From an uncultured Acidimicrobiales bacterium (GTDB lineage Bacteria; Actinomycetota; Acidimicrobiia; Acidimicrobiales; SZUA-35): a stretch of 64,000 nucleotides of DNA. The notes below the pieces were generated by a model. The model was not told the DNA's origin. It saw only the letters and a list, made by a program, of their open reading frames with translations, and did not search any database. The stretch covers positions 1 through 64,000 of the forward strand of contig CALAJQ010000005.1 of assembly GCA_937922785.1 (NCBI GenBank). The letters run 5' to 3'. Within the stretch, counting starts at the first letter, position 1, and every line of letters starts with the position of its first letter. Made by a program: the position numbers and the translations under genes. Shown piece by piece: positions 43,451-63,900 of this stretch.

Positions 43451-43477
43451 TTAACAAGTCGGCAATATCGTGGCGGG

Positions 43478-43483
43478 TACGCT
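43478..43483 (+). promoter_or_regulatory. Putative -10 box (TACGCT) of the thioredoxin-like gene
   Basis: TACGCT ends 7 nt before ATG 43491. It supports that start and shows that the TGA-containing gene still has promoter-like architecture. Confidence 0.4.
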
Positions 43484-43490
43484 TGTGGTC

Positions 43491-44066
43491 ATGGTCCTTC
43501 GACTGAACACCAAGAATCGGAAAGTCCGGATGGGCGCAGCCGCGCTTGCACTTGCAACTTTCGCAGGCGCCTGTGCCGCTGACTCCGAAGCCGATGTCGC
43601 CGTCGAAAGCCCGACGACCAGCGCACAATCTTCGGCTGCGCCTGAAACCGGTACTCAACTTCCGGCTCTCGAGCCAAGCGGCACGATCGATGGCAGTCAG
43701 CTTGACTGGGCCAGCCTTGAAGGTAAAGACGTGATGCTTTGGTTCTGGGCTCCGTGGTGACCAACTTGTAAACGAGAAGCCCCTGCGGTCGCAGAGGCGA
43801 ACGAAATCTACGGTGATGATGTCCTGGTTATCGGCGTTGGTGGGCGTGGTACTGAAACCGACATGATGCGGTTCATTGATGACGGTGGTGTTGGTGGATT
43901 CCAGCACGCAGTTGATGGCGATGATGCAACGATCTGGCAGGCGTTCGGCGTCTCAAGTCAGCCGGCGTTTGTATTCATCAACGACGACGGCACTATCGAA
44001 ACCGTAAGAGGCGCCCTGGGTGAGTCGGGTATAGCCGAAAGGCTAGAGGCCCTAAAAGCCTCCTAA
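43491..44066 (+). CDS. Exported thioredoxin-like protein, candidate selenoprotein (in-frame TGA at 43758)
   Basis: A single frame from ATG 43491 to TAA 44064 is interrupted only by TGA 43758-43760. Read through, it gives 191 residues: signal peptide with possible lipobox (TFAGAC, Cys 28), a linker, then a TlpA/DsbE-like thioredoxin domain. The active site reads LWFWAPW-(TGA)-PTCKREAP where relatives have WCPTC, so the TGA is exactly the nucleophilic Cys (residue 90), and Cys 93 remains. Downstream features are normal: VLVIGVGGRG, cis-Pro loop SSQPAFVFINDDG and a final helix. A GGTC-loop hairpin follows. Selenocysteine (UPTC) is the best explanation; a point mutation is the alternative. It would act outside the membrane in thiol-disulfide exchange. 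Confidence 0.8.
43779..43798 (+). promoter_or_regulatory. Candidate bacterial SECIS hairpin of the thioredoxin-like gene
   Basis: CTGC/GCAG closes a GGTC apical loop (43787-43790). Below a C-A mismatch, GCC pairs with GGC. The loop starts 26 nt after the TGA and begins with GG, as described for bacterial SECIS elements; a GGUC apical loop is also known from E. coli formate dehydrogenase mRNA. Hand-folded. Confidence 0.6.
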
Positions 44067-44679: not shown

Positions 44680-47600
44680 ATGTCGAATGTGCGGTTTAAG
44701 AGATCTGGTGGGGGAGCGCTGTTTGCGGCCCTGTTGTTTGCGGCGACGGTTTCGGTAGTTCCGACTCCACTGCCCGCAGCTGCTGGGCCCGGTGAGGACT
44801 TCTCACTGGCGAAGTCAGACAATGTCGGCGGCGAGGCGCTAATTGGCGAGAACGTTCGATACACGCTGACCGCAACTGGCAACCATTCGTCTGCCGCGCC
44901 CCTCTACAACCTTTCGTTCCGTGACGTTTTGCAGGTTGGCGTCGCGTTTGTGTCATCGGATCCCGCCCCCACCGAAGTCCTAGCGGACGTGCCCTCGCCC
45001 GGGCAGACCACCGTTATCTGGACAAACGTTTCTGATCTTCCAGCCGGATCCGAATCGTCAATTTCGCTCCTTGTCGATACCAACCCTGACTTTGCTGGCG
45101 GAACCTCTGGCAGCGGAACCGTTCCCGTTGGCTCCACGATTACGAACAGCGCCCAGTCCGTAGCCAGTCTCGATCCCTTTGCCGTACCCGACTATGACCC
45201 CGCAACAGGAACCTTTACCACCGACTTTGATGGCAACGCTACGGCCAGTCATGACGTGGCGGTAATTCCGTTCCGAGTAACAAAGACCGGCACGGCCGAG
45301 CTGCTTCGCGGAGTTCATCAAAACGGAATCGATGGGGGAGGGGGCACCATTGGTGATCTCTACACCATCGAGATCGAGAACAACCCCGACTACGCCACTA
45401 ACAACGTCAGCCTGGTTGACACCCTCCATCCTGGCCTTGAGTTCCTCGGTTGTGACGCTTACTACGGTGCCGACAATTCGAGCGCCGAAGAGTGGACGGG
45501 TTCTGGCCCAGTAGCTACAGGAACATGTCCCGCGCCGGTTCAGACGCCAACGTCAGTTGACACTGGCCCCGCCGGAGAAACCATCGTCGACTGGGTTATT
45601 GGAAACATGGCGGGTGGCCAGACCACCAATGTTGTTTACCAAGCAGGCATCCCGTTGTTGGCAAATGCTCCGTTCTCGGCACCGCCAGCCACCGCTGGTC
45701 TAACTCAGGGCCGAAACCTCGATAACAACACCGGTGCCTCAACTGGTGAGCCAGACTCGACGCCTGGTGTGGCGCCGGAGTTGTTGACAGCTCCTGAGCA
45801 ACTTCTTGACAACGTGGCAGCGGCTACAGGAACGTTCTCGCCAAACGGTGCGGTTTCGACTGTCAGCGACACGTTTAACACCGAAGCCGAAGACATCATC
45901 CTCGACAAGTCCATGGTCGGCGCCCTAAACCACGGGTCACTTGTAACGACCACTCTCACTATCAACACATCTGAGTACCGCGACTTCAACAACTTGGTGG
46001 TTCGTGACTTGCTGCCGTCGGCGTTGTGCTTTGTTGGCACCTTCAACTCTGATGTAACCCCTGGCGGATCAGACTGGGCAACAAATGACTGCCCCGGTGC
46101 AGGTTCAATTCAGTCGACGATCAATGGCGTGCCTACCGATGCCGCGCGAGTACAAGAGATCGCTGCCGGCGGCCCTTATGGAACCGGCCGCTTTGAGGTC
46201 GTGTGGGATTTTGCTGACGCTGACAACGCTGCGCTTTCGAGCCTCGCCAGCGATGGCACGATGACCATTGGTTACACGTCAGTGGTTCGAGAGTTTTACA
46301 GAGGCGGCTTGGCGCAGCTTCCCGGCGAACCAGTGCTTGCCGGTGACTTCGTAACGAACGAAGCGGAAGTCTCGGGACCAGACATCGTTGCGAACCCAGC
46401 CGTGTTGGCCCCCGACGCCGCAGACCCCGACGGCGGATCAGACGGAGACACTGCATCATCTTCACTAGAAAACTCGAACCCCACAATCAACAAGAGAGTT
46501 GCGGCCAAGGCTGGCCCGCTTGCCAACGGCAGCAACGCAACGGGAGCTACCTGCGGTGCGTCTCATGGCGCGATCACTTGGTCTGAAGCCGACCCAGCGG
46601 CTGAAGCAGGCTTCGGTCCTGGCGACGTTACCTGCTTCGAACTTGCGGCTTCGTTTCCTAGCGACGCTACTTACGAAGGCACGACGATTCAGGATCTCTT
46701 ACCCCCTGGCTATGAGTACATCCCGGGGTCAGCAACCCGTATTGATGCCACCGACACGTTGGTTGACACAACAGTTGTTGAGTCCCCTCAGGTCGTAACG
46801 TTCAACGTTGCTGGTTCGGGCGAAGTTGGCAACAACGGCAACGAGTTCCTTTGGGTGATCGCAGCAACCATCACCGATAACACCGAGGGCGAGGCGGCGG
46901 ACATCAACGCGAACCTCCAGAAGCTGGTGCACAACAACAATGGCGGGCTGGTCTTCCAGCTACGTGACGCCACACCAGTCGAATGGGCAGAACCTCAAGT
47001 GATGATCGCGAAGGGCGTTGCCGACGTGGATGACGGCCCAGCTAACGGAGCCGACTTCGATGGATCGCTAAGCGGCGGATCAACTGCAGTAGAAGTAGTT
47101 GGCGGAAGCGTCGTGACTTACCGCGTCGACGTATGGAACACCGGTAACGCAGATGCACTGGCAACTGAAATCCAAGATGTCATCCCGACCGGAATTGACT
47201 GCGCGCAAATCTCAAATATCAGCAACGGCGGCTCTTGCAACACGGGCCGAATCACGTGGCCGGTGCAGACGATTCCGGCATCAATCGGTGGGGCCGACAC
47301 CACCCCAGATGACCACACCACTGCCCCGCTCACCCTTACTTATGACCTCACAGTGCCCGGCGACGTTGGCCCAAGCGAAACGTTTACCAACACCGCGGGT
47401 GTGGCTACCTATCAGGCCGCAACCAACACCACCGACTATGTCTACTACCCGGCTGGCAATATCGACCCAGCAAACACAGCACTGGAAAACACCGACGCCG
47501 CTGATGACCAAGCGTTCATCGAAACCCGCGGCATTGACATAACAAAGCTCCAGTGGTCTGGCATCGACGAAGCAGGAAACATCAGCCGCGGTGCGCTTGA

Positions 47601-50600
47601 CTCAGCTCGCGACGACGCCACCATCGGTGAGATCGTGCAATACCAAGTAACCGCCGTGGTTCCCGAAGGCACAACCGTCAACGACGCAGTTATCGAAGAC
47701 GTCATCCCAACCGGCATGACCTACTTCACCGGTATGGGCTTGTTTAACGGGACGGTCTCTGACCTTCAGCCGACGCTTACCGGTACCCCGGCGCCAGCTG
47801 GCGTGCTGGCCGAAAGCGGCGGCACGGTCACTTACACGTTCCCAACCCCATACGTAAACCCAGACGCCTCTGGTGATGACACAGTCACCATTACTTTCTA
47901 CGCCATCGTCAACGATGTCTTGGGCAACGTCGCCGACACAGGCGGCAATCCGGCCGAGACCCGTCTGCGAAACGACGCAACCTTCGATTGGAATGACAGC
48001 GGAGGAAGTCCAGGTCCAACTCAGACATCAAACGTTGTTCGAACCGACGTTGTCGAACCGAACCCGCAGATCGAAAAGGTTCACGTTTCACCCGCTGGAG
48101 CTGAAGTGGATCCGGGCGGAACCATCGATTACCAAATCACAGTCACGAACCCGAACGACATCAACAACGTTTCAGTTTCCCATGACGTGACCGTTGTTGA
48201 CACCGTGCCTGTTGGGATCACACCACTTGGCGCTGGCGCAGTAGGAGTAAACGCAGACGGTCAAACCGTTGAGCCAAACGGTGTTTGGTCTGAAACCAAC
48301 CGCACGATCACATGGACCCCAGCCGAGGTTCCAGCGCTCAACTCTGTAGACCCCGACGCTTCAGTAGTCATTGCGTACCAAGCGACCGTCGACGACCCGG
48401 CCGTAAGCTCGGGAACCCTGACCAACACCGCGGCGCTCACGGCCTACACGTTGGACCAAGATCTTGCCCCCACTGAAGATCCGAACGAAGCGGGCGCTCG
48501 CAGTTACACAGCTGACGACAGCGACTCAGTCACTGTTCCCAATCTCTCCGTTGCCAAGGACATCGAGCCCTTCAATGCCGGTGACGCCGCCGATGACAAA
48601 GCAACGTTTGTTGTAGGCGAACCAGTTGAGTATGAGGTCACCGTTTCGATTCCCGACGGCACAGTCGCCTTCGATGCAACCATCTTTGATGAACTTCCGG
48701 CCTTCCTCGACTTCGACAGCTTCGGCTCAATCGTTGCCACACCAACGTGTGAAAAGTTCGACTCCGGCACGGGCGCAAGCAGCGGCGTTCCGTTAGTAGC
48801 TGGCGATGTTGAGACTTTCAATCCGGTCGGCGCAGACGGTCAGTTGGTTGCGTGGTTCCTGGGCGACACAGTTGCCGTAGGCGCTTGTGAAATCACTGTC
48901 CAATACATCACCCATGTAAATTCCACTGCAGTTGACACCGATGATGTTTCTAACGCAGCAACTGTTGCCTGGAATGGCAGCGACCAAATTTCAGGGGACA
49001 ACCCTGGTGCACTACCGGCGGGTTATGACTCACCGGGCGGCGCTAGCTGGACATCAACCGATGGCACCGCAAACGAAACGTTCACTGTGGTTGAACCACA
49101 GCTTGAGATAGATAAAGACGTCACCGACGCAACTGGCGCCGCGCTGGCGAATCCTGCCTGTGACACCACGGCCGGAAACAACAATGCGGGCAGCGATGAC
49201 GCCGATGGAACTTTGACCGATGGTTGTGACACCGCCTCAGGTGAGCAACTTCGCTACACAGTCACAGTTACGAACAGCGGTACGTCCGATGCTCATGATT
49301 CAGTCGTTGTTGACACCGTGCCAGCTGGTATCACTCCTTTGGATGCTCCCGGCGGTACGGCCGTGGCCACAAACGGAGCGACCGTCACCGGCAACTCTGG
49401 CTCGGTAGGCACATGGGATGACTCAGCCCGCACGATCACCTGGCAGATCGCTGGCCCGATTGCAGTTGCTGGAACGGCCTCTGTTGACTATGACGCCGTC
49501 GTTGACTCTTCTGAGAACCTCGATCGCGGCCAAGACCTCACCAACACGGTTGAGCCAACTGAGTACTACGCGTCCTCAGCCGCCGACCGCGCCCAGATAG
49601 TCGCCGACAATGCTGGCAACGACGACATCCCGACCTATGGCAATGGCGCCGGAGCAACTAGAGGCGCTGTCACGCCAGATTCGGCAACTGTGGAAGTTCA
49701 CTTCCCCGACCTATCGGTAGACAAATCAGCAGGGCCCGGCCAGGACGTCACTGATGTCCGGCTTGACGAGTCGTTCACTTGGGTCATCACGATTACTAGC
49801 ACGGATGCAACCGCAGCTGCCTACAACGTTGAGGCTCAGGACATTCTGCCTGAAGGCTGGACCTACGACGTTGGCTCTGCCATTGTCACAACTCCCTATT
49901 CTTCCAGTCAGGTTGATCCAACTTGTATTCCGTCAGCCGGAGTTTGCTCTGACCCAGCGGCCATGAACATTGAGCTCTTGACCTGGACCGACCTCATTGC
50001 CACCTCGGCACAACCGTTGAACCCGACAGAACAAATTGTCATCACCTTTACTGCAACTCCACAGTCGGCCGCGCTAACTGCTGACCAGGCCACGGGCGAA
50101 GCTCGCACCGGCTATGAGGGTGGCGCAGGCTTTGCTCATACCAACAACGTTTCAGTTATTGCCGAAGACTCAACCGGCTCGTCAGTTTGCTGTGATCCGG
50201 ACGGGCCGGGTCCAGACATCGCTCCTCGCTATCAGGACACCGATTCTGATGACGTGTTCATCGCCCGCGCCGATATCGAGGTTGCCAAGTCGATCGCACC
50301 GGTCGACGCCGATGGCGATCCAATCAACGGTCCGTACTGGTTCGGTTCATTCGTCAACTACACAGTGACCGTCACCAACGCTGGGCCTGATGAGGCAACT
50401 GGCGTCGAACTGTCTGACGTTCTTGACCCAGCGGCTCTTGAGTTCGACTCGGTCGTCTTCGTGGATCAAGGCACATTTGATGACAGCACGAACTTGTGGG
50501 ACGTGGGCACCGTTGCGAACGGCGAAACCTTCACTCTGACTTTGCGCACCCGTCTCGTGGGCCTTGGCTCGGTAACCAACATTGCGCAGAGCGCCGCTAC

Positions 50601-53600
50601 CGATCAGTACGACTCTGACTCGACCCCGGGCAACGACGCTGGGGCCGAAGACGATCAAAGCGAAGTGACAATTGAGGTAGTGCCAACAAGTCTTGGTGAC
50701 TTCATCTGGCTTGACCTGAACAGCGATGGCGTTCAAGACGGTGACGAGCCCGGCATTCCTGATGTGCAAGTTGAGATCACCTGGCTGGATCCAGCCACCG
50801 GCGCTCCACAGAGCTACACCACCACAACTGGAAGCGACGGGTCATACGGTGTGCCCCCTTCGGTTGGCCTACCTGCGGACACCGATATCACTGTCACCGT
50901 CAACACAGCTGCATCGCCTGAACTTGCTGGCCTCGTTCAGACTTTCGATCGCGACGCCACACTTGACGACACAACCACTGAACAGGTTTCAGCTGGCGAC
51001 ACAACACTTCCCGGAACAGGCGCACTGGCCGACCTCGACTTCGACTTTGGCTATGCGCCGAACGGAACCCAGAGCATTGGTAACAAGGTTTGGTGGGACC
51101 AAAACAACTCGGCTGACGCAACCGATGGCGCTGGCGAATACGGCCTTACCGGAATCGATGTAACAGCAACGTGGGCTGGTTGGGATGGCATCTTCGGCAA
51201 CGGCGATGACCTCATGTTCATCGAAACAACAGTTGACGGTGACTACCTATTCAGCGACATTCCGCCGGGTGATTACCGAATCACCGTGGACACGTCAGAC
51301 CTGCCTACGGGTCTGGACACCCAGACGTTTGATCAAGACGGCATCGCCACCGCAAACCTCGTAGAGGTCACCCTGGCTGCAGGTGAAGAGCGACTTGACG
51401 TCGACTTTAGCTACACCGGTCCTGGCAGCCTGGGCGACACCGTGTGGTTCGACCATGACGGCGACGGCACAATTGACGCCAACGAACCAGGCATCAGCGG
51501 TGTAACCGTCAATGCAACATGGGACGGCCCTGACGGAATCGCTGGCAACGCCGATGACGTTGTGCTCACAACCACGACCGACCTGAACGGCAACTACTCA
51601 TTCGACAACTTGCCTTACGGTCAGTACGACGTAACTGTCGACACAGCCACTCTGCCGGGGGGCATGGCCCAGACCTTTGATGATGATGGGCTTGGAACAG
51701 CCAATACCTCAACCGCTGTTATCGACGCTGCGAACCTCAGCAATGTTGATCAAGACTTTGGCTACAACGCATCCGGTTCAATCGGTGACATCGTCTTCTT
51801 TGATGTGGACGGAACTGAAGACGACGGCGTTCCAGACGCTGGCGATGCGGTTCTGCCGAACATCGACGTGACGATCGTTTGGGCCGGTGCCGATGGCATC
51901 TTCGGCAACGCTGATGACTTCAGCTCGACCCAAACAACTGATGCATCGGGCAACTACCTGCTAGATGGTTTGCCTCAAGGTGACTACACAGTCACCGTTG
52001 ACACAGCGACCTTGCCTACCGGCTTGAACGCAAGCACCTATGACGCTGACGGCACGGGAACGGCTGACACATCGGCGGTTACTCTTGATGCCGCTAACCC
52101 GGACAACTTGGATCAGGACTTCGCTTACACCGGCGCATCAAGTGGCCAGATTGGCGATCGGGTCTGGTTCGATCAGAACCTCGACGGCATACAAGACCCA
52201 GGTGAGGTGGGCTTCGACGGCGTCGAGGTGACCCTCGTGTGGTTCGGTCCCGACGGGATTGCTGGCAACGCCGACGACGTAACCCAAACCACGACCACCA
52301 CCGGTGACGGCGACTACCTGTTTGACAACTTGCCTGAAGGTGACTTCTCGGTGACTGTCGACCCGGCAAGCTTGCCTGCCGGCCTCAACCAGACTTTTGA
52401 TGCTGATGGCACTGCGACTGCGAACACTTCGCTAGTAACGCTGTCGCCAACCAGCCCTTCAAACCTCGATCAGGACTTCGGCTACGCAGGTGCCGGTTCA
52501 ATCGGTGACACCGTCTGGTTTGATATCGACAACTCTGGAACTGCAGCAGCAGACGCCGGCGAACCTGGGATTGCCGGTGTTGACGTGATCATCGTTTGGA
52601 CTAACCCGCAAGGACCAGACGCCACGTTCACTGCAACTACCGACGCTGATGGCATGTACCTCGTGCCGAATCTGCCGGAAGGTTCATACACCGTCACCGT
52701 TGACACCGCTACTTTGCCTGGCGGCATGACGCAGACCTTCGACGTGGACGGCTTGGGCTCGCCCGATAGTTCCGCTGTTGTGCTCGACACAGCCAATCCA
52801 GACAATCTGGATCAGGACTTCTCATACACCGGTGTTGGTTCGCTTGGTGACACAATCTGGTTTGACCAAAACAACGACGGGGCTCCCGACCCTGCCGGTT
52901 CAGGCACCTTCGATGGCCAAGATCAGGCACTATCTGGAGTCGATGTAACCGTCACTTGGGGTGGCTTCGATGGGATCGTCGGCGATGACCCTCTAACCAC
53001 TGGGGTTGATGAGGCGGCTGACGACGTTGTCTACCCCGCCACTACCGATGCCAATGGCGAATGGTTAGTTCCTAACTTGCCTCACGGCACCTATGAAGTA
53101 ACCGTCGACCTTGCAACCTTGGCACCTGGCATCACGGTGGAAACCTATGACGACGACGGCGTCGCAACCCCAAGCGAGAGCACAGTGGTTCTCGACGGCG
53201 TCACCCCGGATAACCTCGACCAGGACTTCTCCTACACCGGAGCTGGTTCAGTTGGCGGCCCAATCTGGGTTGATCTTGACGGCGACGGAGTCATCGGCCC
53301 CGACGAAGTTCCAATCGCTGGCGTGACAGTTCAGGTTTCTTATCCCGGTCCGAATGGAACAGTGATTACTACCACCGCTGTGACCGGTGCCGACGGCACG
53401 TACCTTGTGGAGCACTTGCCGTTCGACGTGCCAATCACGGTCACTGTTGACACTGCAACTCTTCCCGCTGGCTTGCAGGAGACCTTCGATGATGACGGCA
53501 TAGCGACCGCTCACACATCAGAAGTAACCCTCACCCCCGCTGATCCGGATCAGCTCGATCAAGCCTTTGGCTACAACGGCGCTGGCTCCATTGGTGACAC

Positions 53601-55254
53601 TGTCTGGATTGACCGTGACAACAGCGGAACTGCAACTGTCGACGGTGGCGAAGTTGGCATTCCCAACGTCACAGTCACCGTTGTGTGGACGAACCCATCA
53701 GGTGCAGGTGACTTAACCATCACCACCACTACTGACGCCAACGGCAACTACCTCATCGAAGGCTTGCCTCATGGCGACTACAGCGTCACGATCGATCCGG
53801 CCACTTTGCCGGCAGGTGTGACCCCAACCTTTGACGCTGACGGCGTTGCCACAGTTGGCACCACGACTACAACGCTTGACGCTGGCTCACCAGACGATCT
53901 TGATCAGGACTTCTCCTACACCGGTAGCGGATCCGTCGGCGACACCGTTTGGTATGACGAAAACGGTGACGGCGTAGTCGACGCTTCGGAAACTCTGCTT
54001 GAAAACGTAGAAGTCACTTTGAGCTACACCGACCCAGTCAGTGGAGCGACCTTTACCGAGACCGTGCTTACCGGACCGAACGGCGAGTACAGCTTTGATA
54101 ACTTGCCCGCCGGTGACTATGAAGTCTCAGTAGACCCAACAACCCTCCCCGAGGGCTATGGCCCAACAGCAGATGTAGATGGTATCGAAACACCTAACAC
54201 CGCTTCGGTCCCATTGGGCGACGGCGAAACCCGAGTCGATGTTGACTTTGGCTACCGGCCCTATGCCGATCTGGCTCTCGCCAAGACCCACACCGAAGAC
54301 TTCATTGTTGGCGGCGAGGGAACATGGCAGCTGACGCTGACCAACCAGGGTCCGGCTCCAGCAATGGCACCAGTGCAGGTTGTAGACACGCTTCCAGCAG
54401 GAGTCACCTACGTTTCGGCGACGGGCACCGACTGGGCGTGTGAGGCGCTTGGGCAGGTTGTCACCTGCACCTATGTTGACGGCACCGGAGACCCGGCCGA
54501 CATGGCCGCACTAGCAACAGCGTCCATTGATCTAACGGTTGAGGTGTCAAACTCCGCAGCTGCTGGCGTCACCAACAACGCAACCGCAAGCTCGCCAACT
54601 GTCGATCAGATCCCCGAGAACAACGATGCCAGTGATGCGGTTGCTCCGCCTCTGTCAGTTCTTGGAGTAGACAAATCTCTAGCTGGCGGGCTTACAAAGG
54701 GCCAAGACGCCACCTACACAATCGTGGCAACAAACTATGGCCCAAGCCCAACTCGGGGCGACGTCGTGGTAAGCGATGCTTTGCCTGCTGGTCTGTCATT
54801 TAGGTCTGCGACCACCAACATCGCTGGGGCGAGCTGCACCCACGCCTCGGGTACGGTGACCTGTATCAACCCGAACGCCATGGCCGCCGGTAGTTCGTGG
54901 ACTATCACGTTGGCAGTAAACGTTTCGAAGACTGCCCCGAACCAAATCGTGAACAATGCCACTGTGTCTGGCGGCAACATCGTAAACGGTGTGCCGTTGG
55001 ATCCGGCCACCCTCGCCGAGGTCTACAACGAGCTGACCGACCCTAACAGTCCAACCTCGACCACTTTGGGAATCGTGGTTGCACCTACGACGACTGACGC
55101 GGTTTCTTCAGCAGTTGCCACCCCACCAACACTGGCTCTGACTGGTGCAAACTCGATGCGAACCTGGATGTTGGGCGTGATGTTGCTACTAGCTGGCGCT
55201 GGGTTGGTGGCCTTGTCATCAAGACGCCGCAAGTTAGCGACGATCGAAAGCTAA
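44680..55254 (+). CDS. Giant DUF11/SdrD-like surface protein with LALTG sorting signal
   Basis: The 3,524-residue protein starts at ATG 44680 with a signal peptide (about 10-37, ending AAAGPG). Residues about 40-2000 are a chain of DUF11-type and related isopeptide-like modules, recognised by phrases such as YTLTATGN, DVLQVGVAFVSS, YTVTVTNSG and VVDTVPAGITPL. Ten SdrD-B-like modules follow (50689-54258), then two more DUF11 repeats. The end has LALTG, a membrane segment and RRRK, a sortase signal of the LAxTG type used by class E sortases. It is probably a wall-linked adhesin or stalk. No sortase gene is in the window. The frame is intact over 10.6 kb. Confidence 0.9.
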   Translation: MSNVRFKRSGGGALFAALLFAATVSVVPTPLPAAAGPGEDFSLAKSDNVGGEALIGENVRYTLTATGNHSSAAPLYNLSFRDVLQVGVAFVSSDPAPTEVLADVPSPGQTTVIWTNVSDLPAGSESSISLLVDTNPDFAGGTSGSGTVPVGSTITNSAQSVASLDPFAVPDYDPATGTFTTDFDGNATASHDVAVIPFRVTKTGTAELLRGVHQNGIDGGGGTIGDLYTIEIENNPDYATNNVSLVDTLHPGLEFLGCDAYYGADNSSAEEWTGSGPVATGTCPAPVQTPTSVDTGPAGETIVDWVIGNMAGGQTTNVVYQAGIPLLANAPFSAPPATAGLTQGRNLDNNTGASTGEPDSTPGVAPELLTAPEQLLDNVAAATGTFSPNGAVSTVSDTFNTEAEDIILDKSMVGALNHGSLVTTTLTINTSEYRDFNNLVVRDLLPSALCFVGTFNSDVTPGGSDWATNDCPGAGSIQSTINGVPTDAARVQEIAAGGPYGTGRFEVVWDFADADNAALSSLASDGTMTIGYTSVVREFYRGGLAQLPGEPVLAGDFVTNEAEVSGPDIVANPAVLAPDAADPDGGSDGDTASSSLENSNPTINKRVAAKAGPLANGSNATGATCGASHGAITWSEADPAAEAGFGPGDVTCFELAASFPSDATYEGTTIQDLLPPGYEYIPGSATRIDATDTLVDTTVVESPQVVTFNVAGSGEVGNNGNEFLWVIAATITDNTEGEAADINANLQKLVHNNNGGLVFQLRDATPVEWAEPQVMIAKGVADVDDGPANGADFDGSLSGGSTAVEVVGGSVVTYRVDVWNTGNADALATEIQDVIPTGIDCAQISNISNGGSCNTGRITWPVQTIPASIGGADTTPDDHTTAPLTLTYDLTVPGDVGPSETFTNTAGVATYQAATNTTDYVYYPAGNIDPANTALENTDAADDQAFIETRGIDITKLQWSGIDEAGNISRGALDSARDDATIGEIVQYQVTAVVPEGTTVNDAVIEDVIPTGMTYFTGMGLFNGTVSDLQPTLTGTPAPAGVLAESGGTVTYTFPTPYVNPDASGDDTVTITFYAIVNDVLGNVADTGGNPAETRLRNDATFDWNDSGGSPGPTQTSNVVRTDVVEPNPQIEKVHVSPAGAEVDPGGTIDYQITVTNPNDINNVSVSHDVTVVDTVPVGITPLGAGAVGVNADGQTVEPNGVWSETNRTITWTPAEVPALNSVDPDASVVIAYQATVDDPAVSSGTLTNTAALTAYTLDQDLAPTEDPNEAGARSYTADDSDSVTVPNLSVAKDIEPFNAGDAADDKATFVVGEPVEYEVTVSIPDGTVAFDATIFDELPAFLDFDSFGSIVATPTCEKFDSGTGASSGVPLVAGDVETFNPVGADGQLVAWFLGDTVAVGACEITVQYITHVNSTAVDTDDVSNAATVAWNGSDQISGDNPGALPAGYDSPGGASWTSTDGTANETFTVVEPQLEIDKDVTDATGAALANPACDTTAGNNNAGSDDADGTLTDGCDTASGEQLRYTVTVTNSGTSDAHDSVVVDTVPAGITPLDAPGGTAVATNGATVTGNSGSVGTWDDSARTITWQIAGPIAVAGTASVDYDAVVDSSENLDRGQDLTNTVEPTEYYASSAADRAQIVADNAGNDDIPTYGNGAGATRGAVTPDSATVEVHFPDLSVDKSAGPGQDVTDVRLDESFTWVITITSTDATAAAYNVEAQDILPEGWTYDVGSAIVTTPYSSSQVDPTCIPSAGVCSDPAAMNIELLTWTDLIATSAQPLNPTEQIVITFTATPQSAALTADQATGEARTGYEGGAGFAHTNNVSVIAEDSTGSSVCCDPDGPGPDIAPRYQDTDSDDVFIARADIEVAKSIAPVDADGDPINGPYWFGSFVNYTVTVTNAGPDEATGVELSDVLDPAALEFDSVVFVDQGTFDDSTNLWDVGTVANGETFTLTLRTRLVGLGSVTNIAQSAATDQYDSDSTPGNDAGAEDDQSEVTIEVVPTSLGDFIWLDLNSDGVQDGDEPGIPDVQVEITWLDPATGAPQSYTTTTGSDGSYGVPPSVGLPADTDITVTVNTAASPELAGLVQTFDRDATLDDTTTEQVSAGDTTLPGTGALADLDFDFGYAPNGTQSIGNKVWWDQNNSADATDGAGEYGLTGIDVTATWAGWDGIFGNGDDLMFIETTVDGDYLFSDIPPGDYRITVDTSDLPTGLDTQTFDQDGIATANLVEVTLAAGEERLDVDFSYTGPGSLGDTVWFDHDGDGTIDANEPGISGVTVNATWDGPDGIAGNADDVVLTTTTDLNGNYSFDNLPYGQYDVTVDTATLPGGMAQTFDDDGLGTANTSTAVIDAANLSNVDQDFGYNASGSIGDIVFFDVDGTEDDGVPDAGDAVLPNIDVTIVWAGADGIFGNADDFSSTQTTDASGNYLLDGLPQGDYTVTVDTATLPTGLNASTYDADGTGTADTSAVTLDAANPDNLDQDFAYTGASSGQIGDRVWFDQNLDGIQDPGEVGFDGVEVTLVWFGPDGIAGNADDVTQTTTTTGDGDYLFDNLPEGDFSVTVDPASLPAGLNQTFDADGTATANTSLVTLSPTSPSNLDQDFGYAGAGSIGDTVWFDIDNSGTAAADAGEPGIAGVDVIIVWTNPQGPDATFTATTDADGMYLVPNLPEGSYTVTVDTATLPGGMTQTFDVDGLGSPDSSAVVLDTANPDNLDQDFSYTGVGSLGDTIWFDQNNDGAPDPAGSGTFDGQDQALSGVDVTVTWGGFDGIVGDDPLTTGVDEAADDVVYPATTDANGEWLVPNLPHGTYEVTVDLATLAPGITVETYDDDGVATPSESTVVLDGVTPDNLDQDFSYTGAGSVGGPIWVDLDGDGVIGPDEVPIAGVTVQVSYPGPNGTVITTTAVTGADGTYLVEHLPFDVPITVTVDTATLPAGLQETFDDDGIATAHTSEVTLTPADPDQLDQAFGYNGAGSIGDTVWIDRDNSGTATVDGGEVGIPNVTVTVVWTNPSGAGDLTITTTTDANGNYLIEGLPHGDYSVTIDPATLPAGVTPTFDADGVATVGTTTTTLDAGSPDDLDQDFSYTGSGSVGDTVWYDENGDGVVDASETLLENVEVTLSYTDPVSGATFTETVLTGPNGEYSFDNLPAGDYEVSVDPTTLPEGYGPTADVDGIETPNTASVPLGDGETRVDVDFGYRPYADLALAKTHTEDFIVGGEGTWQLTLTNQGPAPAMAPVQVVDTLPAGVTYVSATGTDWACEALGQVVTCTYVDGTGDPADMAALATASIDLTVEVSNSAAAGVTNNATASSPTVDQIPENNDASDAVAPPLSVLGVDKSLAGGLTKGQDATYTIVATNYGPSPTRGDVVVSDALPAGLSFRSATTNIAGASCTHASGTVTCINPNAMAAGSSWTITLAVNVSKTAPNQIVNNATVSGGNIVNGVPLDPATLAEVYNELTDPNSPTSTTLGIVVAPTTTDAVSSAVATPPTLALTGANSMRTWMLGVMLLLAGAGLVALSSRRRKLATIES
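50689..54258 (+). repeat. Ten SdrD-B-like tandem modules
   Basis: Each module of about 110-130 residues begins G-S-(I/L/V)-G-D-T-(V/I)-W-(F/Y/I)-D, contains an acidic D-x-D/N-x-D-G loop suited to calcium binding, and ends DNLDQDF-(G/S)-Y-(T/N)-G. Ten starts are visible, from SLGDFIWLDLNSDG to SVGDTVWYDENGDG. The modules differ in sequence, so the expansion is not recent. Confidence 0.85.
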
Positions 55255-58175: not shown

Positions 58176-58681
58176 CAGTAGAACTCAACTCGCCGGGCGG
58201 CCAGGAGATTCAAAATTGCGATCGCGATGAATCCGCATCCCGCCATTGAGGGCAGTGTCATTAGGCCGGCCACTTCGATCCACTTTGCCGAACACGGGTT
58301 ATCAACCGCGCACGATGTTGAGGTTTCACCCAATATTTGCAGCCTGAAGTGATAGGCGGATATGCCTGCGCCGGCAACCGCTAGGGCAATTGGTTGGATC
58401 CGAGGCAGGCTTCGGCGGCTGATCAATTCGAGAACCAACATGAAGGCGAGCGGGTACATCGCTATCCGTTGGAACCAGCAATATCGACACGGTTCGAAGC
58501 CTACGACCTCTGAATAATAGAGCGAGCCAGCAGTGGAAACCGTCGCTACCAGCGCAGATAGTGGCTGCGCCCACCTGTTTGACCAGCCTCGAGCTAGGAC
58601 TCCGATTGTCAACCCAAGTGATCCAACTACGGCGATGACGGCAAGCCACGCAAAGATTATTGACATCGCCTCGACGCTCAC
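58175..58681 (-). CDS. DsbB/BdbC-like disulfide bond formation protein
   Basis: The 168-residue protein has four membrane segments. It carries the two Cys pairs of the family, CRYC in GFEPCRYCWFQRIAMYP, and SCAVDNPC followed by SAKWIEVAGL. It reoxidises extracytoplasmic thiol oxidases by passing electrons to quinone. It is therefore functionally related to the thioredoxin-like exported protein at 43491, though distant. GTG 58681 is supported by TAGCAT 7 nt upstream. Confidence 0.92.
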   Translation of the reverse strand: MSVEAMSIIFAWLAVIAVVGSLGLTIGVLARGWSNRWAQPLSALVATVSTAGSLYYSEVVGFEPCRYCWFQRIAMYPLAFMLVLELISRRSLPRIQPIALAVAGAGISAYHFRLQILGETSTSCAVDNPCSAKWIEVAGLMTLPSMAGCGFIAIAILNLLAARRVEFY

Positions 58682-58688
58682 CGCATCG

Positions 58689-58694
58689 ATGCTA
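58689..58694 (-). promoter_or_regulatory. Putative -10 box (TAGCAT) of the dsbB-like gene
   Basis: On the minus strand TAGCAT ends 7 nt before GTG 58681. Confidence 0.35.
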
Positions 58695-58845
58695 CTTAGA
58701 ACTTGTGGCCCGGACCGGTCATCCGCGTATTGACTCAGGAGCTAGTGACCGATACCCCTTTCTTTGCCGGTCTGAGTGCTTTACCCTCGCCGGTTGGAGC
58801 GGTACTGACGATGAAGTGGATTTTGTGAGCCTTACAGGGGATGAA

Positions 58846-61800
58846 ATGAACGCGGCGGAGATTGAGGATGGCGAGCTTGTTGCTCGGCTGTTTTCCTATA
58901 TAGCTGGAGTGCAGCGATTGAGGGCTCAGGCGTCACCGACGGCTGAAGAGCTTATTGGGGCCGGTCGTGGTTTCTGGCTGTCTGAGTTGCCTGATCACGA
59001 TGCTGTTCTGGATAGCCGCGATGAGGCTGAAGGTCCTGCGATAACACTGAAGTTTCGGGCGAAGGAGCCCGTGCCCGCTGTCACCGCCGAGCTTGAGCCT
59101 TGGCTTGAGGCTCCCTATGACCGTCCAGGTTGGGAACCAAAAGTTCGTTCGGAGTATCTCTACGGAGAAACCGTCAATGAAGATCGCGAAGAAGTTCGTC
59201 TAGCTCGATTGTCCGACAACCCTGACATCGCGGCCGAGATTGACCAATGGCTGGCCGAGTGGCGTAGCTGGGCACTTGAAGACATCCACGCCGCCCCTGT
59301 TCGCAAGCTATATCGCCGCATCGAAGAGATGATGCGTCAGTTAGATGCGAACCCTGAGCAGTACGAAGCCGTATTCCAGGTCGGTTACTTGCACACCCCT
59401 GGCTCCGACGCTTCAAACAAGGGCCGTCACCTGGTAAGGATCAAGGCATCGATAACCAAGAACGAAGCCGGTGACATCGAAATCACCACATCTGGCTCGC
59501 CGATGTTCCACGTCTCGCCGCTCGATGCAGCACTATTGCCCGACACAACCCAGGTTGCGGCTACCCGGTCTGCAATCGAAAACAGTGACGGGCGGGCAAC
59601 GAGCTCTTCATCACTCGGCCCGGCTCTTGAAGAATTCGCCAGCTACTTAAAGCTCGACACTACCTACGTTGCGGACGATCAGCTTCTTTCAACGGGCGAC
59701 GTCGAAGGCTCGTCAGGTCCGCTCATTGTGTGGGCCCCAGCAGTGGTTGTCCGTCCGATTGATCCGCCGGCGGCTCCTGACACAGCAGCCCGAATTGCCG
59801 AACAGATTGCCGTCAACGGCAATCCTCATCTGGCCCTTTCACCAACTTATGAACCCGGCGTCGACGCTCACGCCGAAGTGGCCGGTTTGCTCGTCGCCGC
59901 CCGCAATCAGACTTTGGCCCCGACGAATCTGACCGACTCTGAGCTTGAACTGTTAAGCAGGTCCGGATCCGCCGCCCCAACCGTTGTTCTACGTCCAACT
60001 CAGCCGGGCACCGATGCGGCAAAGTCCGAAGCCATGATCATCGAGCATCTTCTGGCATTGGGGCGAAGGATTCTCGTCACGGGATCCTCATTGGGTCGCC
60101 TTAACGAAATGACTGCAGGGCTGTCCGACGCTGCCCGCTCGATGGTTGCGGTAGTTCCTGAGACCGACCCAGACACAAACACCGACACAAACACCGACTC
60201 AGACACTGGGGCCCCAACAACATCTCTCGTTGACGAGGCAATCGCTAACTACGGCCAGCAGAAAACCGTCGAAGTCGCCACTCAAGACGAGGCCGATCTC
60301 GTTTCTGATCTAGAGCTATTGATTGACCAGCTAGCGGAGCAGGAACTTCAACTAGGCAGCGTCCATAAGGTTGAGGCTGAGGAGCATGAGATTCATGACG
60401 TGGTGGGCACTATCGGTCAAATCACTCATTGGCACACCCAGACTGCGAGCAAATACGATTGGCTTGAAATCTCAGCGGATGCGTCACAGAGACCTTGCCC
60501 GATTAGCAACGGTGACTTTGAACGCTGGCTGCGCCTCATGCGCAACGAAGTTTCGCAAGCCGACCTGGCTCAGATTGCAGTACCCGATCCACTTACAGGC
60601 CTCGAAGGGATTCCTTCGACCGGTGAGTTCGCTGATCTCATTGACATAACCGATGACCCGATCTCTCCCTCGGTTACAGCCACCCTCGATGACACCATCG
60701 TCGACATGGATTCGACTGAGCGTCGCGATCTGATAGCTGAACTCCGTAGCTACCTCGATGTTGGTGTTCACAACGATCTCGCCGCTCGGGTTACCGATCG
60801 CGTTCTGGATCAAAACGGTGACGAGTTCAACGGGTGGACCGTTCGTCAAGGACAGATTGCTGCAGCGATCGGCCGAGTCCACGCCACACACATCAAGTGG
60901 AGTCATCTGCCTGTTGTCCTCTCGATGGATCTCAGCGACGCAACCAAAAGCGCTGCGGAGGTGCTCGAATACTTGGGCAAGGGCCGACCACTAAGGCTAA
61001 ACGAGGACGGAACCCCCAAGTTGGGGATCGGTGCTCCGAAGGTTCTGAAAGAGAACTCTGACTTCTTTGCCAAGGTCCGAGTTGGCGGCAAGCCCGCAGT
61101 TGAAGCTGAGCAACTCAGTGCTTTCATTGAAGGGGCCGAGGCTTGGCGACTGCTCGATGAAGTGGATGCCGCTTGGCCTTCAAGTACACCAGTCCCAGCA
61201 GGGGCGACTGTTTCAGATCGTCTTAGCTGGCATGACTCAGAGCTGGCCAAGCTAAACGAAATTCTTGACTCATCAAAGCGTCTTAACCGCAGGCTCAACG
61301 AACTGTACGAAGCAGGATTGCCCACAGGTGAGGCTTGGACCAGCCTGGCTGACGTGCAGCCCTTCCTTGACGAGCTTGAACGAGTCGATCAGGTCTACAC
61401 CCAGGCTGAGGCTCACGTTGAAATCTCCATGTTGGCTAGTCGAGTTGAGCGTCTGACAGATCAGCCAAACACCCGAAACTGGGCAGCCCCGTTGCTCGAA
61501 GCGATCAGGGACCGCAACGTTGCTGGTTATGAGGGTGCTTTAGAGCGGCGCTTGTCAATGATTCGGTGGGATTCCCAGATGAACTGGCTAGGTGACGTCC
61601 GCTCTCGCCTGCGCCCCCACGCCCCGAAGCTTGTCTCTGCGATGGAAGCCGATCCTGGAAATCAGGCATGGGATGAGCGAGCCAAAAACTTCCATGAAGC
61701 GTGGCGCTGGGCCGCCGTTGGTACGTGGCTAACAAGCAAAACACTGCCTTCACGAGAGGCGATCAGCAAGAGAATTGGGTTTGTTGAAGGTCAGCTTCGT

Positions 61801-63900
61801 CATACCGTCTCTCAGCTCACCGAGGTGCGGACATGGCGCCACGCCCTAGCCAGACGAGAGGGCCTGTCACCTGAGCAACAGTCAACAGACGCTGTCGCTC
61901 CGCTTGTGGTGGCCTCGCTCGAAACTGTCGAGAATCAGTTCGATCTCGAGCCCGGCGGCTTTGATGTTGTGATTGTCGAGGGCTCGTCTCAAGTCGGTCT
62001 TGATTCGTTGTTCCTACAGTTCATCGCTCCGAAGCTGATTGTTATGGGCGATGGCAGAGTTCGAGGTAGCTCTGTAACCGATCCGAACCCCTACGAGCTA
62101 GCCGAGCTTGCGGCTGAGATGCTTCCGGCCGACTATCAAGACCGTTGGACTCGTCCAGAACTGAGTCTCTTCGACGAGTACGCAGTTCGCTTTGGCGACG
62201 TACTCGAGCTGGCCGGCTCTGTGGTTGATTCTGACGAGAACCCCTTCGATTTGAGTTCAGCCGATGTGAGTTCGGCCGGTGACGCAAACCAGCCTGCAAT
62301 CGGCCTTGACGAGGACTCAGACGTTGAGGGGCCGTTCGAATCGCTGTTCGAACAGCGCGTGTTCAACCGGTTGTCTGATGAAGGCTTTAACGTGGAGCCT
62401 CTCTTTGAATCGGATCAATACGACATCGACCTACTGGTTCACGGTGACGATCAGAGTCTTGCCGTCGAGATCGCCGATGATTCATGGCAAGGTCCTGAGG
62501 CGTATGCAGCTAAGGCTAAGGCAAGACAGAAGCTAGAGAGTTCTGGATGGGCGCTGCATGTGATAGCGCGTCACGAAGCTGTAGCGAATGCCGACGCCGC
62601 CTATTCAGACATTAAGAGACGATTGACCGCAACCAACATCGTTGCTGGAGACCAGACCGAAGCTGAACAAGATGAGGCTGACTACGCACTGGAGCCTGAG
62701 ATCCAAGCTTGGGCCAAGGAGATGGCTAGCGCGGGCGCACCTAGTGTTTCTGCAATCAACGGGTTTGGCTCTGGTGATGGTGGCGAGTCGTCGTTCGGTG
62801 AGTCTGACGATGCGATCGTTTCCGAGGTCATAGTTACCCGCCCTCTTGAGGTCCCAGACCAGCCCCACCTAATCGACCTAACTGGAGCGTCGGGAAGCGA
62901 GGTGGCCATTGAATTCACCGATGAAGCTGAAGTTGTCCAGCCAGGTGAAGGTGTTGAGCTTGAAGCTGTCGAAGTCGAAGCTTTCGAATCAGTCCAGGAA
63001 GCTGAAGTAGTCGAAGCTTTCGAATCAGCCCAGGAAGCTGAACAAGTTCCTGAAGCTGAAGATCTCACAGAGCTAGAAGAGACTGACATCGAGAATCTTG
63101 AATCTGATGTTGTAGTTACGGTTGAACCTGAGGCGAGCGAGACCGCAGCTCAGCGAATCTTCGCACCGAGCGAAGAGGCTGTCGATCTTGACTGCGTCGA
63201 ACCGGCGCCATCTCAGTCGGTATTCCCTGACTCTGTTCCGGTTGAGCCCAGGCGTGCTTCATCTCAGTCGGTGTTCCAACCCGCAGCGGTCACAGATGAT
63301 TTTGAATCTGAGCCCACAGAACTAGAAAGTGGCTCGATTTTCGCATCTGTGGCCGATGTAGTAGCGGTCGCGCCCGGTGGCGAATCGGTTGTGGGATTCA
63401 ACACTGGTGCCTTCGCCCGTTATGTCGAATGGCAGCCGACCTATCGGTACGCAGCTGATTCGATGAGCAGGGATCAACTGATGGAGGTCATTACTGAGGC
63501 AGTAGCAGCCGAAGGGCCGATAAGGATCGATCGCCTATTCCGCTCGATAATGAAGAACAGTTCCAGCGGACGCCTAAACCGCAAGACTGAGAGCAGACTA
63601 GAAGAGGCAGTGAGAGCCGCCGAAAAGGGTGGCCTGATCGCAATTCAGGCTCCAATCACTGGCTCAGACTTGCAGGATTTCTTTGCAGTCTGTCCAACGC
63701 ATACGGTTGTGGCTCGTCGCCGTGGCCGTCGAAAGGTGGCGGAAATCCCTCCTTCTGAGGTGATGGCGGCACTAGACGCCCTTGACGACGGAACAGAAGG
63801 TACCTATCGCAAGCTAGCCAACAAGTGGGATTTGGGCCGCCTCGGGTTCGAAGCGAAGAGGTATCTGAAAGCTTGTGACGAGCTGAGAAGAAAGCGCTAG
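58846..63900 (+). CDS. Large helicase-nuclease-like protein with degenerate ATPase motifs
   Basis: From ATG 58846 (after AGGGGATGAA) this has 1,684 residues; the open frame extends upstream to 58660. The N terminus (LVARLFSYIAGVQRLRAQ, then RGFWLSELPDHDAVL) resembles large actinobacterial SF1-helicase proteins (DUF4011/AAA type). Where these have a P-loop, it reads RPTQPGTDAAKS (near 383). Where they have DEASQ and GDPKQLPP, it reads VEGSSQ (near 1045) and GDGRVRGSS. The second helicase domain seems missing. A PD-(D/E)xK-like region follows (about 1165-1255: RLSDEGFNVEPLFESDQYDI, then AVEIADDSW), then a Glu/Val-rich linker and a DUF3320-like end. It may be a catalytically dead scaffold or a nuclease lacking ATPase. 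The frame is intact. Confidence 0.7.
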   Translation: MNAAEIEDGELVARLFSYIAGVQRLRAQASPTAEELIGAGRGFWLSELPDHDAVLDSRDEAEGPAITLKFRAKEPVPAVTAELEPWLEAPYDRPGWEPKVRSEYLYGETVNEDREEVRLARLSDNPDIAAEIDQWLAEWRSWALEDIHAAPVRKLYRRIEEMMRQLDANPEQYEAVFQVGYLHTPGSDASNKGRHLVRIKASITKNEAGDIEITTSGSPMFHVSPLDAALLPDTTQVAATRSAIENSDGRATSSSSLGPALEEFASYLKLDTTYVADDQLLSTGDVEGSSGPLIVWAPAVVVRPIDPPAAPDTAARIAEQIAVNGNPHLALSPTYEPGVDAHAEVAGLLVAARNQTLAPTNLTDSELELLSRSGSAAPTVVLRPTQPGTDAAKSEAMIIEHLLALGRRILVTGSSLGRLNEMTAGLSDAARSMVAVVPETDPDTNTDTNTDSDTGAPTTSLVDEAIANYGQQKTVEVATQDEADLVSDLELLIDQLAEQELQLGSVHKVEAEEHEIHDVVGTIGQITHWHTQTASKYDWLEISADASQRPCPISNGDFERWLRLMRNEVSQADLAQIAVPDPLTGLEGIPSTGEFADLIDITDDPISPSVTATLDDTIVDMDSTERRDLIAELRSYLDVGVHNDLAARVTDRVLDQNGDEFNGWTVRQGQIAAAIGRVHATHIKWSHLPVVLSMDLSDATKSAAEVLEYLGKGRPLRLNEDGTPKLGIGAPKVLKENSDFFAKVRVGGKPAVEAEQLSAFIEGAEAWRLLDEVDAAWPSSTPVPAGATVSDRLSWHDSELAKLNEILDSSKRLNRRLNELYEAGLPTGEAWTSLADVQPFLDELERVDQVYTQAEAHVEISMLASRVERLTDQPNTRNWAAPLLEAIRDRNVAGYEGALERRLSMIRWDSQMNWLGDVRSRLRPHAPKLVSAMEADPGNQAWDERAKNFHEAWRWAAVGTWLTSKTLPSREAISKRIGFVEGQLRHTVSQLTEVRTWRHALARREGLSPEQQSTDAVAPLVVASLETVENQFDLEPGGFDVVIVEGSSQVGLDSLFLQFIAPKLIVMGDGRVRGSSVTDPNPYELAELAAEMLPADYQDRWTRPELSLFDEYAVRFGDVLELAGSVVDSDENPFDLSSADVSSAGDANQPAIGLDEDSDVEGPFESLFEQRVFNRLSDEGFNVEPLFESDQYDIDLLVHGDDQSLAVEIADDSWQGPEAYAAKAKARQKLESSGWALHVIARHEAVANADAAYSDIKRRLTATNIVAGDQTEAEQDEADYALEPEIQAWAKEMASAGAPSVSAINGFGSGDGGESSFGESDDAIVSEVIVTRPLEVPDQPHLIDLTGASGSEVAIEFTDEAEVVQPGEGVELEAVEVEAFESVQEAEVVEAFESAQEAEQVPEAEDLTELEETDIENLESDVVVTVEPEASETAAQRIFAPSEEAVDLDCVEPAPSQSVFPDSVPVEPRRASSQSVFQPAAVTDDFESEPTELESGSIFASVADVVAVAPGGESVVGFNTGAFARYVEWQPTYRYAADSMSRDQLMEVITEAVAAEGPIRIDRLFRSIMKNSSSGRLNRKTESRLEEAVRAAEKGGLIAIQAPITGSDLQDFFAVCPTHTVVARRRGRRKVAEIPPSEVMAALDALDDGTEGTYRKLANKWDLGRLGFEAKRYLKACDELRRKR

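Follow-up and report, generated by a model that had tools for sequence, protein, structure and literature searches.

A predicted UPTC selenoprotein of the DsbF/MPT53 fold and its TGA-bearing relatives in an uncultured Acidimicrobiales bacterium

The window, i.e., the whole 64,000-nucleotide stretch of DNA analysed here, harbors on its plus strand a thioredoxin-like gene in which a TGA triplet occupies the codon of the first active-site residue. The features of this gene are listed below.

43491..44066, plus strand: predicted selenoprotein gene for a DsbF-like lipoprotein of the thioredoxin fold (read-through translation, Pfam and homologues)
43491..43574, plus strand: putative export signal ending in the lipobox-type FAGA-C28 (sequence reading; a lipobox-like pattern is matched by 110 of the 115 Sec members, i.e., TGA-bearing relatives)
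43758..43760, plus strand: TGA, read as selenocysteine (Sec) 90, with which the UPTC active site begins (read-through, conservation in relatives)
43767..43769, plus strand: TGT, resolving Cys93 of UPTC, replaced by TGA in the UxxU paralogues (sequence, relatives)
43779..43798, plus strand: hairpin of the bacterial SECIS type with eight stem positions, including one C-A mismatch, and a GGTC loop at 43787-43790 (fold, covariation, synonymous-codon control, absence from the Cys homologues read)
43962..43964, plus strand: codon of Pro158 at the cis-Pro position (sequence, alignment, model)

The read-through translation of 43491-44066 encounters exactly one in-frame stop, the TGA of codon 90, just as the initial annotation had stated, and the predicted product of 191 residues with Sec90 is terminated by TAA at 44064-44066. 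Four codons are candidates for the start, namely GTG 43470, GTG 43485, ATG 43491, and ATG 43530. When open reading frames of at least 80 aa are listed in the plain manner, the frame of the gene is represented by 43470-43760 alone. Upstream of the TGA, sequence reading reveals a basic and then an apolar stretch followed by the lipobox-type Cys28 (codon 43572-43574), which agrees with the export signal previously noticed there. Among the five Sec members that deviate from the lipobox pattern, two end at the edge of their stretch, L060 and L121 appear lipobox-like by eye, and L079 has no such motif. The gene is flanked on one side by dnaX-like, ybaB, and recR genes, all on the minus strand, and on the other by genes for tRNA-Ser and small SRP RNA, none of which looks like an operon partner. 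Two very long open frames also lie on the plus strand of the window, at 44680-55254 (3524 codons) and 58660-63900 (1746 codons).

The active site reads WFWAPW-TGA-PTC, and with the TGA taken as a residue the protein exceeds the Pfam cut-offs of Redoxin, AhpC-TSA, Thioredoxin, Thioredoxin_8, and Thioredoxin_2. The predicted structure has a mean pLDDT of 84.2, with ten-residue blocks of 90-98 from residue 61 onward. In the model, Sec90 is placed immediately before helix 91-107 and Pro158 immediately before strand 159-163, which corresponds to the usual thioredoxin active site with the cis-proline facing it, and the complete thioredoxin fold that the initial annotation had described downstream of the TGA is thereby borne out. 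Foldseek returned DsbF of Mycobacterium tuberculosis (3ios) as the best match (E 2.2e-15, TM 0.91 by target), followed by MPT53/DsbE (1lu4) and then ResA, and the resemblance to DsbF extends to the sequence (phmmer 4.6e-26). DsbF and MPT53 share the fold with the window protein over about 128-130 columns at 36% and 34% identity, respectively. Moreover, DsbF possesses the same WFWAPW-x-PTC active site and the same QPA loop at the cis-Pro position, but a Cys where the window protein has Sec. The earlier statement that relatives read WCPTC is thus correct for DsbF (WFWAPWCPTC), but not for the nearest relatives, which have TGA as well. DsbF is itself a lipoprotein. Judging from sequence and model, we regard the window protein as a homologue of DsbF and MPT53 that would share their mechanism, and we infer that it would be a lipid-anchored disulfide oxidoreductase of this actinobacterial fold with Sec as the attacking residue.

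The TGA is far from being a peculiarity of this one genome. Matches to the window protein were found in 38 of the 39 genomes of the family (own genome included), and among the matches listed at E <= 1e-18 in these 39 genomes, 56 of 57 contain TGA stops by hand count. Each of the 56 has one or two stops, all of them TGA; the 57th (L087) has no stop and displays TGT at the codon of the window TGA. In a sample of 396 genomes of the phylum, 29 of the 43 matches listed at E <= 1e-20 bear TGA and 14 do not (hand count), three of the 29 being derived from the own genome. In total, 130 distinct stretches were read, which comprise 101 UxxC, 14 UxxU, 14 CxxC, and one CxxS; the resulting 115 TGA against 15 Cys members should not be taken as a frequency and lean toward TGA, because the stretches were mainly chosen among TGA-bearing listed matches and most of the distant stop-free matches were left out. 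Identical proteins (e.g., L052-L054 and L058), a stretch with masked bases (the second copy at L046), and the two-TGA match G007:C281 (E 1.2e-19) are outside this set. Thirteen loci carry names, of which 12 belong to MAGs of Acidimicrobiales or Acidimicrobiaceae and one to an 'Actinomycetes bacterium'. Random stop positions in close relatives had been named in advance as an argument against recoding; the stops are in fact located at the same codon. Third codon positions vary most on both sides of the TGA in all seven relatives compared, which points to coding sequence before and after it. The family therefore has what is expected of a bacterial selenoprotein, a conserved in-frame UGA at a catalytic position accompanied by Cys homologues. 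Two arrangements of neighboring copies were also observed: at L110 (G194), a CSVC (Cys) and a USVC (Sec) copy are situated near each other on one strand, with the GGTC loop in the Sec copy alone, and at L041 (G014) and L046 (G013), the UPTC copy is immediately followed by another Sec copy, which has UTTC in a YAPT context.

The hairpin behind the TGA had been reported to start 26 nt after it; this distance is valid for the GGTC apical loop, and the stem begins at 18 nt (43779). The window contains 1280 and 1158 TGA triplets on its two strands, of which 9 and 11 are followed by at least seven of eight pairs in the hairpin geometry, and only 43758 among them also has GGTC, the geometry having been fixed after the hairpin was seen. 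The 30-nt hairpin folds with -11.3 kcal/mol (z -2.10), a stability reached by 6 of 200 shuffles, and the corresponding values for the 60-nt stretch are z -0.99 and 30 of 200. Folding by itself is modest evidence, and the case is carried by the comparative evidence.

For the comparison, 82 distinct stretches were kept, and the removal of six with a Cys codon gave 76, which were divided into A1 (66 rows) and A2 (10 rows of the WAPH type, defined by H or D before Sec and the lack of GGTC, plus L096). In A1, GGTC is present in 66 of 66 rows and CGGTC is invariant, the Val of the loop being always encoded by GTC and the preceding codon being always NCG. The stem around this loop varies by paired substitutions, such as CTGC/GCAG, CCAC/GTGG, CTAC/GTAG, GGTGC/GCATC, and others. 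Paired cells amount to 439 of 528 (83.1%) compared with 71.1 +/- 0.9% in shuffles (0/500) and 29-53% for a slid stem, and cells changed on both sides number 55 compared with 14.3 +/- 3.0; both the double-change cells and the covariation score lie above shuffles (0/500). The number of stem pairs with changes on both sides (six) is not above shuffles (80/500), and the fourth pair counted from the stem base is unpaired in 48 of 66 rows. When codons were dealt among sequences sharing the residue, so that every protein was kept, the 439 paired cells observed in A1 exceeded the shuffles (mean 407.7, max 420; 0/2000). The hairpin covaries beyond codon choice, i.e., it is kept at the RNA level.

The hairpin is also unequally distributed between Sec and Cys members. 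Of the 87 Sec members outside the WAPH type, 81 have GGTC at +26 and 69 have at least six of eight stem pairs, whereas neither feature occurs in any of the 15 Cys members read. When the criterion published in PMC13188914 (section 5) is applied at -7.5 kcal/mol, 102 of the 115 Sec members possess a hairpin, 60 of them through the GGUC hairpin at 26 nt, and 13 (11 UxxC and two UxxU) do not; four of the 15 Cys members also possess one by this criterion, formed by other hairpins. The hairpin behind the window TGA matches the expected form of a bacterial SECIS element.

The own genome (G000; 4.91 Mb in 45 contigs, 95.71% complete) encodes the machinery that selenocysteine insertion demands. A tRNA-Sec was detected with 66.7 bits (gathering score 47) and called tRNA-SeC(tca) by ARAGORN, accompanied by SelB (275.2 bits, cut-off 242.25), SelA (384.6 bits, cut-off 267.9), and SelD (368.1 bits, cut-off 125), where selA adjoins selB on C21 and selD itself has one TGA inside; all four genes that the initial annotation had proposed to look for are accordingly present, so that a lack of selB and tRNA-Sec, named there as an argument against selenocysteine, does not apply. 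Among 14 control genomes, the cut-offs were passed by tRNA-Sec in five, SelB in two, SelA in one, and SelD in two, so the tRNA-Sec cut-off alone is unspecific. Of the 39 family genomes, 31 have a tRNA-Sec over the gathering score and 29 have one over 60 bits, and all of the latter have a TGA-bearing member (hand count). Six of the other ten genomes likewise have such a member, and five of these six have selA. These six (G001, G014, G015, G019, G023, and G031, out of 35 TGA-bearing genomes) are assemblies of 80 to 920 contigs, with G015 and G023 given as 95% complete, and G019 is the one with no selA at E <= 1e-20. By hand count, 34 of the 39 genomes combine selA (E <= 1e-20) with a TGA-bearing member, three have neither, and two have only one of them. 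In genus g7, represented by three genomes, selA was not found at E <= 1e-20, nor was a TGA-bearing match among the matches listed. Owing to their shared history, the family genomes are not independent tests.

Taken together, the conserved TGA, the covarying hairpin, and the Sec machinery genes of the own genome support the proposal of the initial annotation, and we hold with high confidence that the TGA at 43758 encodes selenocysteine at predicted residue 90, giving UPTC instead of CPTC. Following established bacterial Sec insertion, SelB with Sec-tRNA(Sec) would bind the hairpin just 3' of the UGA and would then deliver Sec in place of termination. A pseudogene, a nonsense mutation, or an assembly error would account for the fact that the standard code breaks the frame and that the ORF list retains only the part 43470-43760. 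Such an origin is nevertheless hardly credible when 56 of the 57 listed matches have TGA stops and 115 of the 130 stretches read, even with a choice that leaned to TGA, have them at this very codon, when the frame has no other stop and third codon positions differ most on either side of it, and when the hairpin is kept at the RNA level. A base error at 43758 is very unlikely in particular, since the TGA recurs in many separately assembled genomes. UGA is known to be reassigned in some bacteria, so throughout the genome it might conceivably stand for an ordinary residue such as Trp or Cys, or it might be subject to leaky read-through, with the hairpin serving something else. This explanation, which we consider very improbable, conflicts with the family genes L033, L037, L055, L059-L062, and L064, which themselves end in TGA, and UGA consequently still terminates in such genomes. 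It is also opposed by the full Sec machinery of the own genome and by a hairpin that fits the bacterial SECIS model (PMC13188914) and is absent from the Cys homologues read.

Given selenocysteine at residue 90, the function is probably thiol/selenol-disulfide exchange, be it as reductase, isomerase, or oxidase. After export and lipidation, Sec90 would attack a disulfide, or be attacked, and would form a mixed selenenylsulfide with the substrate, which Cys93 would resolve. The usual recycling partners of DsbF are VKOR and DsbD/CcdA. In the own genome, at 95.71% completeness, no VKOR exceeded the cut-off and no match to the DsbD/CcdA transmembrane domain (DsbD_TM) was obtained at E <= 0.001; in this respect the window protein differs from DsbF. 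This result concerns the pathway and leaves the assignment to the sequence family untouched. A Sec-type VKOR candidate on contig C15 (21.7 bits against 27.5, with a TGA inside) was judged spurious from its translations because it offers no convincing VKOR frame and is apparently antisense to another gene. As for the chemistry, the protein might instead be a Sec protein devoted to surface peroxide or electrophile reduction or to redox sensing, a rival that concerns function only. The best Pfam models, Redoxin and AhpC-TSA, speak in its favor, as does the Arg that the double-Sec paralogues have at the cis-Pro position, a residue described there for peroxiredoxins in the accessible passages of PMC2757866. 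The window protein itself, on the contrary, retains Pro158 and the UxxC motif (WAPWUPTC, whereas peroxiredoxins combine TxxC/U with a cis-Pro position occupied by Arg), and the nearest proteins of solved structure are disulfide oxidoreductases, which renders this alternative rather unlikely.

The own genome contains at least six TGA-bearing genes of the family, the window gene included, as 6 of 11 matches to the window protein were read. The five further paralogues are UPHC (C20), UPHU (C8), UPTC of the WAPH type (C34 and C6), and UQTC (C10). A hairpin model, R1, recovers these six genes alone at E <= 1e-3 in the own genome; only C6 and C34 are independent matches, because the genes on C5, C8, C20, and C10 are part of the training alignment. 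The next match, L160 (18.5 bits, E 0.076), lies roughly 2 kb away from selD, is antisense to a frame of AraC-like appearance, and was taken as chance; reading ended with this seventh match, the eighth to eleventh having E 0.18-0.55.

Double-TGA paralogues with UPFU, UPHU, or UPVU were observed at 14 loci, among them G000:C8:93898-94332 (L066). In a tree of few columns whose bootstrap was unsettled at 0.985, these 14 UxxU rows group as a single clade (98/87) nested in UxxC, and the second Sec therefore probably arose once. All 14 UxxU rows have Arg at the cis-Pro position, where Pro is found in 65 of the 74 rows with the label UxxC and in 13 of the 14 CxxC rows; tree and count each cover 129 of the 130 rows, L089 being too short. 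The UxxU genes have a single hairpin, 26 nt past the first UGA and 17 nt past the second. Within the order, two-TGA matches to the UPHU protein occur in 9 of 198 genomes, with motifs read inside the family.

Loci of the WAPH type were observed at L067, L068, L092, L096, L098, L100-L104, and 18 more. In most members of this clade of 28 rows (support 100/100), the +26 hairpin is missing; the clade has instead one of the GAGCA-GTT-TGCTC type 9 nt further downstream, with the loop GTT at +35 and some compensatory changes. With 10 rows, its paired cells were not above synonymous shuffles (637/2000); the full 28 rows show covariation here too, with 127 paired cells out of 140 compared with a shuffle mean of 124.0 (11/2000). 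The branch was drawn slightly differently in the two analyses, comprising 26 rows in the cis-Pro count and 28 in the hairpin test. It is possible, though we put it forward only tentatively, that the window gene is part of a wider actinobacterial radiation of selenoproteins at the cell surface. The UPFU/UPHU/UPVU branch, in which Sec took the place of both active-site cysteines and Arg that of cis-Pro, and in which a single hairpin apparently serves both UGAs, would then be a new class of surface enzyme, either a diselenide peroxidase or a reductase that forms a diselenide, and its active site would have evolved from that of a thioredoxin-like disulfide enzyme to resemble that of peroxiredoxins; the WAPH branch would be a second one, with the SECIS hairpin shifted by nine bases in the 3' direction.

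Thioredoxin-fold selenoproteins with UxxC or UxxU and actinobacterial selenoproteins have long been known, according to the accessible parts of PMC13188914, PMC2398784, PMC1088965, PMC9312934, and PMC1794560. The UxxC proteins described as thioredoxin-like, Prx-like, or of the Redoxin family (PMC13188914 Table 1 and passages of PMC2398784 and PMC9312934) share the thioredoxin fold, UxxC, and Redoxin or AhpC-TSA Pfam matches with the window protein. The entry 'Redoxin family protein, UxxC' (HEU0032618.1 in PMC13188914 and MBA3499694.1 in PMC9312934), compared by tabulated motifs and accessions alone, may possibly already include the window gene. Actinobacteria terms are absent from the main text, as available, of PMC13188914, PMC2398784, and PMC9312934. 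Known UxxU proteins, namely Prx-like 2 (PMC2398784) and the Prx-like thiol:disulfide oxidoreductase (PMC13188914 Table 1), resemble the UPFU/UPHU paralogues, by their descriptions, in having two active-site Sec, and the passages concerned do not mention Arg at the cis-Pro position. NF041054 (ResA-like WAxxUGC) shares a ResA-like fold and Sec in a WAxxU motif, but its motif is UGC where the window protein has UxxC, and its cut-off of 300 bits is far above the 34.8 bits that the window protein scores. Nor did this protein, or any of four other family proteins tried, attain the cut-off of an NCBIfam model. A search that covered few subscription journals found no literature joining DsbF and selenocysteine. 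By title and abstract opening, none was found on Acidimicrobiales selenoproteins, and that on selenocysteine in Actinomycetota had nothing on such proteins.

A gene seemingly broken by a stop is thus predicted to make, very probably, a selenium-containing, membrane-anchored redox protein. Exported selenoproteins of one family appear to be present in the Acidimicrobiales, and the standard reading cuts their genes at UGA. UPTC, UPHC, and UPHU, along with the CPTC of DsbF, constitute a natural set for the roles of selenium and cis-Pro in thioredoxin-fold chemistry, and the double-Sec branch offers a case for studying in what way a single hairpin might recode a pair of UGAs with two codons between them.
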